Origin: Bacteroidota bacterium
GTDB lineage: Bacteria > Bacteroidota > Bacteroidia > Cytophagales > Cyclobacteriaceae
Reading direction: 5' to 3'
Length of the DNA stretch: 64,000 nt
Assembly (NCBI GenBank): GCA_016866235.1
Contig: VGMW01000001.1
Location: 799,731-863,730, forward strand
How positions within the stretch are numbered: position 1 is the stretch's first letter; every line of letters begins with the position of its first letter. The notes beneath the pieces are model-generated. The model was given only the letters and a program-made list of their open reading frames with translations, was not told the DNA's origin and searched no databases. Made by a program: the position numbers and the translations under genes. Shown here one piece after another: positions 22,110 to 38,367 of the stretch.

Positions 22110-22910
22110 TCAGAGCCAACGCTCCATTTCCTTTTTCACTTTTAGTGCTTCAGTGCGGGCTGCTTCGGCAAAATCCTTTCCGGAAGATGCGTAGATAATT
22201 GCCCTGGAGGAGTTTACCAACAGGCCACACTCGGAGGTGATGGCCTCTTTAGAGACCTCTTCCAGGCTTCCACCTTGTGCGCCAACGCCGGGCACCAGAA
22301 AGAAATTTTTAGGAGACAGTTTTCGAATGTGACCTATGCGGTCGGCTCTGGTGGCTCCTACCACAAACATCATTTGGTCTGGGCTGGCCCACTGTTGGGA
22401 TTTGGTAACCACTTCCTCGTAAAGATTTTTCTTACCGTCGGAAAACAATTGAAAGTCGGACGACCCTGGGTTGCTGGTGTGGGCAAGAAGAATAATCCAT
22501 TTTCCCTTGGTGTTGAGAAAGGGTTTCACGGAATCTTCTCCCATGTAAGGTGCCACCGTTAACGCATCGTAAGCCATTTGATTAAAAAACGCTTCAGCAT
22601 AGCGTTCGGCAGTATTTCCGATATCACCTCTTTTGGCGTCAGCGATTCGAAGGTGTTTATCGCCGATGTAGTCGGCTGTCTTTTTTAAAGTTTCCCAACC
22701 TTTGGCGCCGAGGGCTTCATAAAAAGCGGTGTTTGGCTTATAGGCAACACAAAGATCTTTGGTGGCATCTATGATTTGCTTATTGAATTCAAAAACCGGG
22801 TCGGGAGAATCGAGCAGATGGGTAGGGATTTTGGACAAATCAGCATCCAATCCTACGCAGAGGTAGGATTTTTTGCTGAAAATATTGTCAATAAGCTGAT
22901 CTCTAGTCAT
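22110..22910 (-). CDS. pyrF: Orotidine-5'-phosphate decarboxylase, type 2
   Basis: The listed ORF begins at 22961, but the preceding residues are hydrophobic filler; the ATG at 22910 (MTRDQLIDNIFSKKSYLCV) is the natural start and gives 266 aa, the type 2 PyrF length. The catalytic Asp-Lys-Asp motif is IADAKRGDIGNTAERYA; the substrate aspartate lies in VGLDADLSKIP; and PGVGAQGGSLEEV is the phosphate-binding loop. It makes UMP in the last step of pyrimidine synthesis. The gene converges on dnaN. Confidence 0.95.
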   Translation of the reverse strand: MTRDQLIDNIFSKKSYLCVGLDADLSKIPTHLLDSPDPVFEFNKQIIDATKDLCVAYKPNTAFYEALGAKGWETLKKTADYIGDKHLRIADAKRGDIGNTAERYAEAFFNQMAYDALTVAPYMGEDSVKPFLNTKGKWIILLAHTSNPGSSDFQLFSDGKKNLYEEVVTKSQQWASPDQMMFVVGATRADRIGHIRKLSPKNFFLVPGVGAQGGSLEEVSKEAITSECGLLVNSSRAIIYASSGKDFAEAARTEALKVKKEMERWL

Positions 22911-23133
22911 CAATTGGAGTTGAGTTATAAAGAAAAATATTTTCAGCGATAATTCAATCAAAGAGTTAATTTCTCTTTCCTCAGTCGGTCTGCATTTTTG
23001 AGCCCATCGGAATGATCATCCGCCTAATGATGGTAAGGTGTTTTGTGAACCATTAAGATCCAATACTTGAAAACATCCGCTTCCGTTTTTTGTCCGCTTT
23101 TGTGATTAATTTGCGACCCATTTTAATACCTGT

Positions 23134-24194: not shown

Positions 24195-24758
24195 GAGAGC
24201 GCGAGAGCGAGATGGCAGTGATCGGCTATCAATTAAATTTCTAACACTCTTTTCTCGCTTTCGCTCTTGCTCTGTTTTTTTTCTCTTTTCTCGCGCTCGC
24301 TCTCGAGCTAAATCAGATCGAGAATCAGATCGAGATGGGAGTGATCGGCTATCAATTAAATTTCTAACACTCTTTTCTCGCGCTCGCTCTGTTTTTTTCT
24401 CTTTTCTTGCGCTCGCTCTCGAGCTAAGCCAGATCGAGAATCAGATCGAGATGGTAGTGATCGACTATCAATTAAATTTATAACACTCTTTTCTTGCGCT
24501 CGCTCTCGAGCTAAGCCAGATCGAGAATCAGATCGAGATGGCAGTGATCGGCTATCAATTAAATTTCTAACACTCTTTTCTCGCTTTCGCTCTCGCTCTG
24601 TTTTTTTTCTCTTTTCTTGCGCTCGCTCTCGAGCTAAGCCAGATCGAGAATCAGATCGAGATGGGAGTGATCGGCTATCAATTAAATTTTTAACACTTTT
24701 TTCTCGCTCTCGCTCTCGCTCTGTTTTTTTTCTCTTTTCTCGCGCTCGCTCTCGAGCT
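24195..24758. repeat. Five-copy tandem repeat array, unit about 120 bp
   Basis: The 570 bp between the convergent ilvE and BNR-protein genes is filled by five tandem units. Each begins near gatggNagtgatcggctat, at 24211, 24334, 24450, 24537 and 24660. The units measure 123, 116, 87, 123 and about 100 bp. The 87-bp unit has lost a block rich in ctcgctctg/poly-T, and the last unit stops after ctctcgagct. Within each unit, atcagatcgaga occurs twice in tandem and one strand is strongly pyrimidine-rich. The left edge (gagagcgcgagagcgaga) resembles the reverse complement of the right edge (tctcgcgctcgctctcgagc). No continuous reading frame crosses the array. Confidence 0.95.
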
Positions 24759-33471: not shown

Positions 33472-33544
33472 TTTTACCTATACCTGTTTGTGCCTGTAAC
33501 AACTTTGCGCAAAGCCATCCTAGGTTTTACCGAGCCGATTTCAA

Positions 33545-33700
33545 CAGGCCTTCTTTAAAGCCAATAGACCCCTGAGCTTGTTTATGCCGAGCGTTTAACT
33601 TTGCGTATACCTTCAAGACCCCTGAGCCGACCCCTGAGCCGACCCCTGAGCCTGTCGAAGGGGTCGAAGGTGTCGAAGGTGTCGAAGGCATCGAAGGGCC
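33545..33700. repeat. CCTGAGC/TCGAAGG palindromic repeat field 1, with amplified arms
   Basis: The field opens with aggccttctttaaagccaat (also found in field 2) and continues with GACCCCTGAGCC repeated three times (from 33617). These are followed by five tandem 9-mers of the form nnTCGAAGG ending near 33697. The left and right arms are complementary (GACCCCT / AGGGGTC), so the whole can fold as a hairpin. CCTGAGC-nnn-TCGAAGG palindromes are known as dispersed repeats in many bacteria. Confidence 0.9.
33569..33593 (+). repeat. 25-bp direct repeat, left copy
   Basis: Contains TGAGCTTGTTTATGCCGAGC and is identical over 25 bp to 34982-35006. The two copies flank the MbfA-like gene in direct orientation. 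Confidence 0.9.
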
Positions 33701-33765: not shown

Positions 33766-34863
33766 ATGGTGAATCTGAATGCAGTGAAGGTAGAGGTGGA
33801 TGCTTCCTATTTGTATGGAATACTGGCAAAACATGAGCCCGATCCTGATATGGCCTATGTTTTCAAAGAGATGAGCGAAATCGAGCGTGGTCATGCAATT
33901 GCATTTATGACAAAGAACGGTCTGACTGAAGCCGATCTGCCTGCTCCTTCTGGTAGGGCTCGGACCCTTGAGTTTATCGGACGGGTATTGGGCTACGATT
34001 ATATCCTTGGCGTATTGTTGGATACAGAAAAGCGCTTGTCGGCCTCCGTGTTGAAGGCCAGGAAAGATGCAGGTTTACCCGTGTCCTTGTCCGATACCGC
34101 GCATGTCACGATTGTGAAAAACATCATGACGGGCGGAAGGAACCTATCGGGTTCTAATTTAGCCCGATTCGAAAAGCGCCATCGTTCGGTGGGGGGCAAT
34201 GCATTGAGGGCTGCGGTGTTGGGCGGTAACGATGGATTGGTATCAAACTTTTCGCTGGTGATGGGAGTGGCTGGGGCGGTAAGTGGACAGCAGGAAGTAT
34301 TGATTACAGGTTTGGCAGGTTTGTTGGCCGGTGCGTTATCGATGGCCATGGGTGAGTGGATTTCGGTAAAAAGCTCGCAGGAGTTGTATGAGAATCAGAT
34401 GGAAGTGGAGATGGAGGAGTTGGAAAACAATCCGGAGGGGGAGGAGCGGGAGTTGGCCTTGATTTATCAGACCAAAGGCATACCGGAGGCCCAGGCAAAG
34501 GCGATGGCGAAGGAAATAATGGGCAACAAGCAGCAGGCCCACGATGTATTGGTGAAGGAGGAATTGGGGATCAATGCGGAGGAATTGAAGGGTTCGGCAA
34601 TGGAAGCTGCGGTTGCGTCTTTTGTCTTTTTTGCTGTTGGAGCGATCATCCCTGTTATTCCCTTCTTCTTTTTCGGCGGCATGAAAGCTGTATTGATCAG
34701 TGCCGGTTGCAGTACGGTAGGATTGTTTATGATTGGTTCAGCGATCACCTTGTTTACTGGCCGCAGTGTTGTTAAAAGTGGCTTGCGACAGGTTGTTTTT
34801 GGCCTTGCAGCTGCAGCCGTCACCTACGGCATCGGTACCTTAATAGGTGTAAGCTTACAGTAG
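33766..34863 (+). CDS. Ferritin-like/VIT1 fusion iron transporter (MbfA-like)
   Basis: 365 aa in two parts. Residues 1 to about 130 form a ferritin/rubrerythrin-like helical domain with one clear metal motif (EMSEIERGHA, an ExxH) and another glutamate in KVEVDASYLY. Residues about 140-365 form a VIT1/CCC1 transporter: ALRAAVLGGNDGLVSNFSLV, AGALSMAMGEWISVKSSQEL, and the helices AVASFVFFAVGAIIPVIPFF and the C-terminal pair. Membrane-bound ferritin A exports iron and protects from oxidative stress in rhizobia. Here the second ExxH of a full di-iron site is not apparent. The gene sits between two fields of the same repeat. Confidence 0.85.
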   Translation: MVNLNAVKVEVDASYLYGILAKHEPDPDMAYVFKEMSEIERGHAIAFMTKNGLTEADLPAPSGRARTLEFIGRVLGYDYILGVLLDTEKRLSASVLKARKDAGLPVSLSDTAHVTIVKNIMTGGRNLSGSNLARFEKRHRSVGGNALRAAVLGGNDGLVSNFSLVMGVAGAVSGQQEVLITGLAGLLAGALSMAMGEWISVKSSQELYENQMEVEMEELENNPEGEERELALIYQTKGIPEAQAKAMAKEIMGNKQQAHDVLVKEELGINAEELKGSAMEAAVASFVFFAVGAIIPVIPFFFFGGMKAVLISAGCSTVGLFMIGSAITLFTGRSVVKSGLRQVVFGLAAAAVTYGIGTLIGVSLQ

Positions 34864-34980
34864 TGTAGGTGCTCATCAAAAGCCCTATCCTCCCCACTCG
34901 CTCTCCTCCTCGCTCTATTCCAATTCAGGTTTTTGCTATTCCGAGTCAGGTGTTTTCACCTGACTCAACCAACTATAAAG

Positions 34981-35664
34981 CCCCCTGAGCTTGTTTATGC
35001 CGAGCGATTACTCTGTGAAGAATTCAAAGGCCCCTGAGCTTGTCGAAGGGGCCGTGTTGTAGCCGAGGTACCGAAGGTGTCGAAGGGGCCGAGGTCTGGT
35101 GACCGGCCTTCGACTTCGCTCAGGCCTCCTTTAAAGCCAATAGACCCCTGAGCCGACACCTGAGCCTGCCGAAGGTGTCGAAGGGGCCGAGGTCTGGTGC
35201 CCGGCCTTCGACCACCTCGGCTGCGCTCGGTGACTAAGCTCAGGCCTCCTTTAAAGCCAATAGCCCCCTGAGCCGACACCTGAGCCTGCCGAAGGTGTCG
35301 AAGGGGCCGTGTTGTAGCCGAGGTACCGAAGGTGTCGAAGTGGCCGAGGTCTGGTGACCGGCCTTCGACCACCTCGGCTGCGCTCGGTGACTAAGCTCAG
35401 GCCTCCTTTAAAGCCAATAGCCCCCTGAGCCGACACCTGAGCCTGCCGAAGGTGTCGAAGGTGCCGTAGTGTAGCCGAGGCATCGAAGGTGCCGAAGGTG
35501 TCGAAGGGGTCGAGGTCTGGTGACCGGCCTTCGGCTTCGCTCAGGCCTCCTTTAAAGCCAATAGACCCCTGAGCCGACACCTGAGCCTGCCGAAGGTGTC
35601 GAAGGAGCCGAGGTCTGGTGACCGAGCGAAGCCGAGGTCTGGTGACCGAGCGAAGCCGAGGTCA
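34981..35664. repeat. CCTGAGC/TCGAAGG palindromic repeat field 2, nested units
   Basis: About 680 bp of composite repeats. The anchor aggcctcctttaaagccaat recurs at 35122, 35242, 35399 and 35543, giving units of 120, 157 and 144 bp. Each unit contains CCTGAGCCGACACCTGAGCC, then GAAGGTGTCGAAGG-type arms, then the inverted arm (GGCCTTCGAC...GCTCAGG), so each can fold back on itself. The right end decays into two copies of gaggtctggtgaccgagcga. The ORFs called here on the minus strand are repeat translations, not genes. Confidence 0.95.
34982..35006 (+). repeat. 25-bp direct repeat, right copy
   Basis: Identical to 33569-33593 and in the same orientation, downstream of the MbfA-like gene. It also marks the start of repeat field 2. 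Confidence 0.9.
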
Positions 35665-36145
35665 CACCCCATTCCCCATCCGGCCCATCCGCGGTTTCCC
35701 TGACCATCATTTAGCTCAAGTAAAGGTTTAACATGTCATTTCTCCATTTTTTCCCATTTATGAACTTTTTGAAAAAATATTGGGAATTGGATTGGAAAGG
35801 AATAGGAGGTAGCCTTTATCTCAATTATAATTCAAGCATAAATGCTGATATTGATACCAAATGGGGGAGTTCAAGGGGTGGATAATTCTAATGGTAGCTA
35901 ACCACGGTTAGGTTGAAATTGGTTTTTTTGATCCATCGGCATTTTATAACGGTTTCATTCTGGGAAATATTGTTCAGGCTTGGAAAAAAAATATTGACAT
36001 GCATATGTGTAGTCTCATATGGCGTCATAATTTTACTCAGGGCTTGGTCTGACCAGCGACAAAAAGTTGTTCAGGCCACCACTAAAAAACGACCACTACG
36101 ACTAAAAATTTTACATTAAAAAAGATGATTATGAAAAACGTCTAA
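35665..36145. other. AT-rich stretch between repeat field 2 and the secreted-protein fragment
   Basis: No convincing gene. It is visibly more AT-rich than the rest of the window. The 68-aa ORF at 35913-36119 has no start signal and no recognisable domain, so I do not call it. At 36131 there is ATGAAAAACGTCTAA, a start codon followed four codons later by a stop in the same frame as the secreted fragment downstream. Confidence 0.5.
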
Positions 36146-36481
36146 TTGTCCTCTGCCGATCAGCGACAACAAACGACCTGGATGCGGCGAGTAGCCGTGG
36201 TTTGGGTGATGCTTTTGAGCAGCTTTGGGGTGTTTGCACAGCCTCAACTCAATTTAACAGGGAATACTCCTGTTCTTACAGAATGCAATCCGACAGCAAA
36301 AACAATTGAGGATGCGTTCGGAACAGTAACAGTTTCAGGTGACAATTGCCCATCTAATAGTCAAACTGCATTTGCTGGCAACATTAAAAGTGAAGGTCCA
36401 AGCTGTGATAAATCTGGCAATCCACAAGGTGGAGGAAGTAGCTTTTTCAGGTACTTTTCAGCCACAACAGCATCCACTCAA
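36146..36481 (+). pseudogene. 5' fragment of a secreted-protein gene
   Basis: The frame from 36146 (TTG; first ATG 36182) encodes a signal peptide (MRRVAVVWVMLLSSFGVFAQ) and then about 80 residues of low-complexity, Thr/Ser/Gly-rich sequence (PQLNLTGNTPVLTECN, GNPQGGGSSFFRYFS) of the kind that begins large T9SS adhesins. After about codon 112 the sequence switches into oxidoreductase sequence read in another frame and the ORF dies at 36559. The rest of the gene is missing. Its own start is odd: an upstream in-frame ATG is stopped after four codons by TAA at 36143-36145. It is either a deletion remnant or an assembly join. Confidence 0.7.
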
Positions 36482-37661
36482 AATATCAGGTGTCGAATTG
36501 GCCGCCGTCTGCGACCTATACCAGGGCCGTCTGGTCAATGCAAAAGAGGAATTTGGTGAGAGCCTGTTCACGACAATCAATTACAAAGATCTCCTCGATA
36601 GAAAAGACATCGACGCGGTATTGATCTGCACCACCGATGTATGGCATGCACGCATTGCGATGGATGCTCTGGCCAAAGGAAAACATGTGTACTGTGAAAA
36701 GCCAATGGTCTATAAAATCGATGAGGGTTATCCGGTCATGGACGCAGCGAAAAAATCCGGTAAAGTGTTTCAGGTCGGTAGTCAACGGGTAAGCAGCATC
36801 GGATACCTGAAAGCAAAGGAATTGCTGGCAGCAGGCGAAATTGGAAAACTCAATATGGTCAACGCAGTGTACGACCGACAAAGTTCCATCGGCGCCTGGG
36901 AATACACGATCCCCAAAGACGCAAATGCCCTAACGACCAACTGGGATAAATTCATCGAAGCCACCGAAAAGATGGCCTATGATTCAAAAAAGTTCTTCTG
37001 GTGGCGAGCCTTTAAAGAGGTGGGTACAGGAGTCGCAGGTGATCTGTTCATCCACCTGCTTAGTGGTTCACACCTGATCACCGGATCCAAAGGTCCGGAA
37101 AGTATTTACAGCACCGGACAACTTAGCTACTGGAAAGATGGTCGCAACCTACCCGATGTAATGTCCGGCGTGCTCCATTATCCGGATGCTCCCGAACACC
37201 CTGGTTTTTTAATGACCCTTCAGGTGAATTTCATCAGCGGCACCGGTGGACAAGAGATTATCAGACTCGTAGGTTCAGAAGGTGTAATGGAAGTAAAAGG
37301 AAATAGCCTGACCATAAAGCACAGTCTGATGCCCGAAGCACCTGGCTTTGGGGGATACGATTCATTGTTCACATTTTCAAAAAGCATGCAGGAAGAGATG
37401 CAAAAAGAATACAATGCCAGGTGGACCCCCGAACAACAAAAGCGGAAAATAAAAGAAGACGTCATCTTTAAAGCACCTGCCGACTACAGCGACCACCTCG
37501 ATCACTTTACCAATTTCTTTGATGCCGTACGAACCGGTAAGCCTGTGGTGGAAGATGCTGAATTTGGTTTCAGAGCCGCGGCACCTGCGTTGGCCTGCAA
37601 CGAGAGCTATCTTAATAAGAAGATCATTCAGTGGGATCCCGTCAACATGCGGCTGAAATAA
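36480..37661 (+). pseudogene. Gfo/Idh/MocA oxidoreductase lacking its NAD-binding N-terminus
   Basis: From ISGVELAAVCDLYQGRL onward this is a typical Gfo/Idh/MocA dehydrogenase: VLICTTDVWHARIAMDAL, GKHVYCEKPMVYKIDEG, FQVGSQRVSS and VAGDLFIHLLS in the substrate domain. The expected first 60-70 residues (Tat signal and Rossmann GxGxxG loop) are absent. The track start at 36339 merely reads the other gene fragment out of frame. Without the dinucleotide loop the protein should be inactive. Compare the intact paralogue at 47620-48969, whose VALIGCGWYGK loop precedes the equivalent position. Confidence 0.8.
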
Positions 37662-37728: not shown

Positions 37729-38367
37729 ATGGAAAATCCTGTAATAATTTTTGGCACCGGTCCCATTGGTCGTTCTGCCCGCGACATCTTTGAAGCCAAT
37801 GGAAACATGGTTTATGGCTATCTGGACGATCGTTCTGATCTCCATGGTACACAAATCGATGAAATCACCGTCCTGGGAAATACAGACGATGACGGTTTCC
37901 TGAAATTGATAGGTAAAAAATGTGAGGCCTTTGTGGCCGCTGATGATCTCCGTCTTAGGAAATCATTGGTGAAGATGCTCAATGATGTAAGACATGTCCA
38001 GCCGGTAAACGCAGTTCATCAACGGGCAGGTCTTTCGCCTTTGGCCATCATCGGACATGGTAATTATTTTGCTGCCCGCACTGAAGTTGGTCCCGGAGCA
38101 AGCATTGGTAATCATGGTTTATTTCATACCGGTTCGCAGGTCGGAGCTGAATGTGTGGTTGGCCACTATGTTCAGATCGGCGCTGGTGCTGTGATTAATC
38201 CAGGTGTGATCATCGAAGATGATGTTTTCATTGGGTCAGGTGCCATAGTGGTTTCAGGTGTTAAGCTTGGTAAGGGCGCCCGGATCGGTGCTGGTTCAGT
38301 GGTTATTGCACCCGTTGCTGCGGGTGAAACTGTTTTCGGAAATCCCGCTAAACCCGTTAAGTCCTGA
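37729..38367 (+). CDS. NeuD-like sugar O-acyltransferase (left-handed beta-helix)
   Basis: 212 aa. The N-terminal part is a PglD/NeuD-type nucleotide-sugar-binding domain (VIIFGTGPIGRSARDIF); residues about 100-205 are hexapeptide repeats (VGPGASIGNHG, VIEDDVFIGSGAIVVSG, ARIGAGSVVIAP) ending in the usual FGNPAKPVK. These enzymes transfer acetyl groups to amino sugars or sialic acids. No sialic acid or polysaccharide cluster is nearby, so the acceptor is open. The next gene starts 2 bp after its stop, showing an operon. Confidence 0.88.
   Translation: MENPVIIFGTGPIGRSARDIFEANGNMVYGYLDDRSDLHGTQIDEITVLGNTDDDGFLKLIGKKCEAFVAADDLRLRKSLVKMLNDVRHVQPVNAVHQRAGLSPLAIIGHGNYFAARTEVGPGASIGNHGLFHTGSQVGAECVVGHYVQIGAGAVINPGVIIEDDVFIGSGAIVVSGVKLGKGARIGAGSVVIAPVAAGETVFGNPAKPVKS

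Follow-up and report, generated by a model that had tools for sequence, protein, structure and literature searches.

The window analysed here, a stretch of 64,000 nucleotides from a Bacteroidota genome, contains two open reading frames on the forward strand that overlap in different frames, one at 36146-36559 and the other at 36330-37661. The features of the locus are collected in Table 1. Read from its ATG at 36182, the upstream frame encodes MRRVAVVWVMLLSSFGVFAQ followed by PQ, which judged by eye is a plausible signal peptide, and it runs on past the joint, out of frame with the downstream gene, to a stop at 36559. The downstream frame encodes most of a Gfo/Idh/MocA dehydrogenase. A sequence-only reading of this DNA had described the start of a secreted protein up to about codon 112, a change of sequence near 36480, and an out-of-frame junction to a headless Gfo/Idh enzyme. 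Both positions proved accurate, and the junction itself was borne out by the presence of both frames, by a Pfam match that lacks the beginning of its profile, and by homology to intact genes that starts only at 36477.

Table 1. Features at and around the joint (positions within the window)
Feature	Positions	Strand	Remarks
GC-rich repeat array	34977..35670		units of ~120-157 bp with CCTGAGCCTGCCGAAGGTGTCGAAG
AT-rich stretch	35700..36140		no coding signal; GC 34-39%; precedes the stub
5' stub of secreted-protein gene	36182..36476	+	signal peptide MRRVAVVWVMLLSSFGVFAQ and ~80 Thr/Ser/Gly-rich residues
Junction interval	36474..36488		homology to intact genes fades out
Headless Gfo/Idh/MocA dehydrogenase	36477..37661	+	residue 73 to end; Pfam, alignment with intact relatives
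NeuD/PglD-type acyltransferase gene	37729..38367	+	usual upstream neighbours (DUF2851, membrane protein) not here

Within the headless frame, the match to the NAD-binding domain PF01408 begins at profile position 15, while the C-terminal alpha/beta domain is recognised by PF22725 (9e-12) and PF02894 (6e-7), and the EKP motif (HVYCEKPM) is kept in alignment with relatives. Its 393 codons contain no internal stop and no frameshift. The top-scoring named NCBIfam model is that of the BT_2158-type glycoside 3-dehydrogenase (NF058561); since the score is 96 against a cut-off of 750, the remnant was not assigned to that family. The dehydrogenase structures 8tdf and 8tdh are two among its best PDB matches.

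Relatives of the dehydrogenase were found at 80 loci among species genomes, and 18 intact ones (462-478 aa) were used for alignment. The full-length relatives are Tat-exported Gfo/Idh/MocA dehydrogenases of ~466 residues, in which a twin-arginine signal, SRRKFLQQIGATS, stands at the start and the NAD-binding loop IRIGVIGYGVQGHFDL comes next. Agreement with them begins in the window only at LKISGVELAAVCDLYQGR, residue 73 of 466, so that 72 residues are missing. As the sequence-only reading had claimed, both the leader and the NAD-binding loop are gone: the relatives' SRRKFLQQIGA has no counterpart in frame with the enzyme, and their GVIGYGVQGHFDL is likewise missing, so that the remnant has lost the first beta strand and the GxGxxG-type glycine loop of the NAD-binding fold. 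The signal-like leader of the stub lies out of frame with the enzyme and contains no SRRxFL motif. The closest intact relatives, L042 and L043, share 87% of residues with the retained part; together with a gene of Emticicia aquatica (L045) they represent Tat-exported dehydrogenases of freshwater Bacteroidota that are 84-87% identical to the remnant over the retained 390 residues and have the C-terminal domains and EKP motif in common with it, but are longer by the 72 N-terminal residues that hold the twin-arginine signal and NAD-binding loop. No aligned relative starts naturally where the remnant begins. An essential part present in intact homologues (residues 1-72) has thus been lost, as in a pseudogene.

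One could instead regard the arrangement as a functional new gene, in which the Gfo/Idh frame is read from the GTG at 36339, or is reached through a frameshift out of the secreted leader, to yield an exported, NAD-independent protein. The frame is indeed open from 36330 to 37661, its conserved sites are intact, and one shift of frame following STQNI would place the enzyme behind the signal peptide. However, the start of the NAD-binding fold is absent, ahead of the joint the Gfo frame shows a weak codon signal or none, and the arrangement occurs in no relative; we therefore consider this reading very improbable. That the chimera is actually expressed, by frameshift or alternative start, as a newly born fusion gene for an exported Gfo/Idh-derived protein no longer using NAD seems, if anything, slightly less probable still.

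Nucleotide comparisons place the joint within narrow limits. In blastn searches, matches with many relatives begin at 36467-36489, and CACTCAAA at the joint consists of bases common to intact genes such as L044 and L054. No relative's genome carries the same joint. We also asked if the original start had been retained, given that ATGAAAAAC at 36132 looks like the beginning (MKN) of the intact gene; neither the codons after it nor the DNA before it proved similar to relatives, and since ATGAAAAA starts are common this idea was dropped. That the joint occurs in this assembly alone would fit an assembly or binning error, in which two unrelated pieces became linked in silico near 36480 while the organism, or two organisms mixed together, possesses the intact genes. 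We rate this explanation, the main rival, as unlikely overall, though well ahead of a functional fusion. Against it, the joint does not lie in exactly repeated sequence, and the contig (C1) is very long, with the window at 800-864 kb in an assembly of 12 contigs in all.

The pieces missing from either side of the joint were also sought. A search of the own genome (12 contigs, 95% complete) for the dehydrogenase 5' end or N-terminus, which would represent the reciprocal product of a rearrangement, did not find it; the best match there to the missing N-terminus was a paralogue at 41%. The absence of the dehydrogenase 5' part from the other contigs also speaks against an assembly error. For the stub, no source could be traced. 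It had no Pfam match, no relative at E <= 0.001 in its own genome (itself only), in 97 relatives or in ~390 genomes of the order, and for 397 genomes of the family the best match had E 0.009; plasmids and viral contigs contained no relatives, and matches to long surface-protein ORFs were weak and not significant. Thus, of the two intact genes that the sequence-only reading had suggested seeking in close relatives, the full oxidoreductase was found, whereas the secreted-protein gene had no credible relative among several hundred genomes. A stub without relatives in its family is a further point in favour of an assembly error.

The DNA upstream of the stub had been described as AT-rich and preceded by a large repeat field, and both descriptions hold, with 34-39% GC at 35700-36100 and the array at 34977-35670. 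The core sequence of the array is also present at three other places in the genome. The repeat family (CCTGAGCC.../GTCGAAGG, AGGCCTCCTTTAAAGCCAATAG) flanks a VIT1-family gene (33766-34863) as direct repeats at 33537-33700 and 34977-35670. A second, unrelated tandem-repeat field with CTCTTTTCTCGCGCTCGCTCTCGAG... units is located at 24204-24758, downstream of a class IV aminotransferase gene and adjoining a large T9SS-type secreted BNR/sortilin-like protein on the reverse strand. A repeat field less than 1 kb upstream of the joint counts towards an assembly error, but the longest exact match between the joint region and the nearby repeats is 10 bp (AGGTGTCGAA), which is not enough to confuse an assembler. 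The 24 bases at 36488-36511, just inside the remnant, agree with one unit of the array in 21 of 24 positions; no other such match occurs in the window outside the repeat tracts. Similarity to intact genes seems to set in some 11 bp to the left of it (LKIS), which places the match within the native gene. It is a curiosity, which we did not take as proof of a repeat-mediated event. Recombination with the array was rejected as a candidate, the left half of the matching unit being absent from the left flank. The earlier proposal of a rearrangement or assembly error at repeats is therefore upheld as far as the joining of two unrelated gene pieces is concerned, whereas a causal role of the repeats was not demonstrated.

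We then considered the age and origin of the remnant. At 200 positions that are invariant among 24 relatives the remnant has 3 changes, compared with 0-6 in intact genes evaluated by leaving each one out; silent sites are saturated with respect to the nearest relatives. Because there is neither a stop nor an excess of changes at conserved sites, the break is either evolutionarily recent or an assembly artefact. The absence of visible decay is expected for a very young break and likewise for an artefact, and in the latter respect it counts towards an assembly error. The remnant has a third-position GC of 0.53. Genes around it span 0.38-0.57, while values in its closest relatives are 0.24-0.28. 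As the remnant fits its neighbours, unlike the AT-rich relatives, it looks resident and not like foreign contamination, and this agreement with the genome weighs against a joining of unrelated pieces in silico.

The gene neighbourhood provided a further line of evidence. In members of the genus, the acyltransferase gene is often followed by phosphorylase, M16 peptidase and methyltransferase genes, as it is here. At most of the ten loci examined, its upstream neighbours are a membrane-protein gene and a gene that, by its sequence motif, we take to encode a DUF2851 protein; at several of them it comes after pyrF. In several genus members, pyrF and the PglD-like acyltransferase gene are close together with the DUF2851 gene between them, whereas in the window pyrF (22110-22961) is 15 kb away from the PglD-like gene (37729-38367) and on the opposite strand. 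The DUF2851 gene was not found in the whole assembly by a query that finds it in 53 of 58 other genus members. Since pyrF is displaced and the DUF2851 gene absent, rearrangement and gene loss have affected this locus quite apart from the joint.

Taken together, these results make it probable that a real and recent deletion or rearrangement truncated both the dehydrogenase gene and the secreted-protein gene and fused their remains out of frame. A real event is favoured by the lack of a long exact repeat at the joint and the absence of the lost 5' part from the assembly, and also by host-like third-position GC, the other gene loss and rearrangement at the locus, and a genome that is small for its genus; a real recent rearrangement is accordingly the favoured reading and ranks above an assembly chimera. 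The joint would then exist in the cell and may have originated by illegitimate recombination. The deletion or rearrangement would have removed the first 72 codons of a gene for a Tat-exported Gfo/Idh/MocA sugar dehydrogenase along with the 3' portion of a secreted-protein gene, either a neighbour or an incoming one, and the leftover pieces would have been fused out of frame. We infer that both products are dead, one being a stub without its body and the other a remnant without cofactor loop or export signal. Such an event is of an ordinary kind: bacterial pseudogenes truncated at the 5' end by deletion or illegitimate recombination likewise lack their start region, are fused out of frame to a neighbour's stub and sit in an altered gene order, but the remnant in the window is so far without further visible decay. 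Literature searches returned nothing specific to this case.

The finding matters mainly to annotators, who should label neither the ORF at 36339-37661 as a working dehydrogenase nor the one at 36146 as a complete small secreted protein. If the joint is an artefact, it marks a spot in the assembly that needs checking. If it is real, the remnant would represent a pseudogene of recent origin, in a lineage with other genes lost at the locus, and a further example of gene loss in a genome that, at 2.77 Mb against mostly 3-5 Mb, is comparatively small for its genus.
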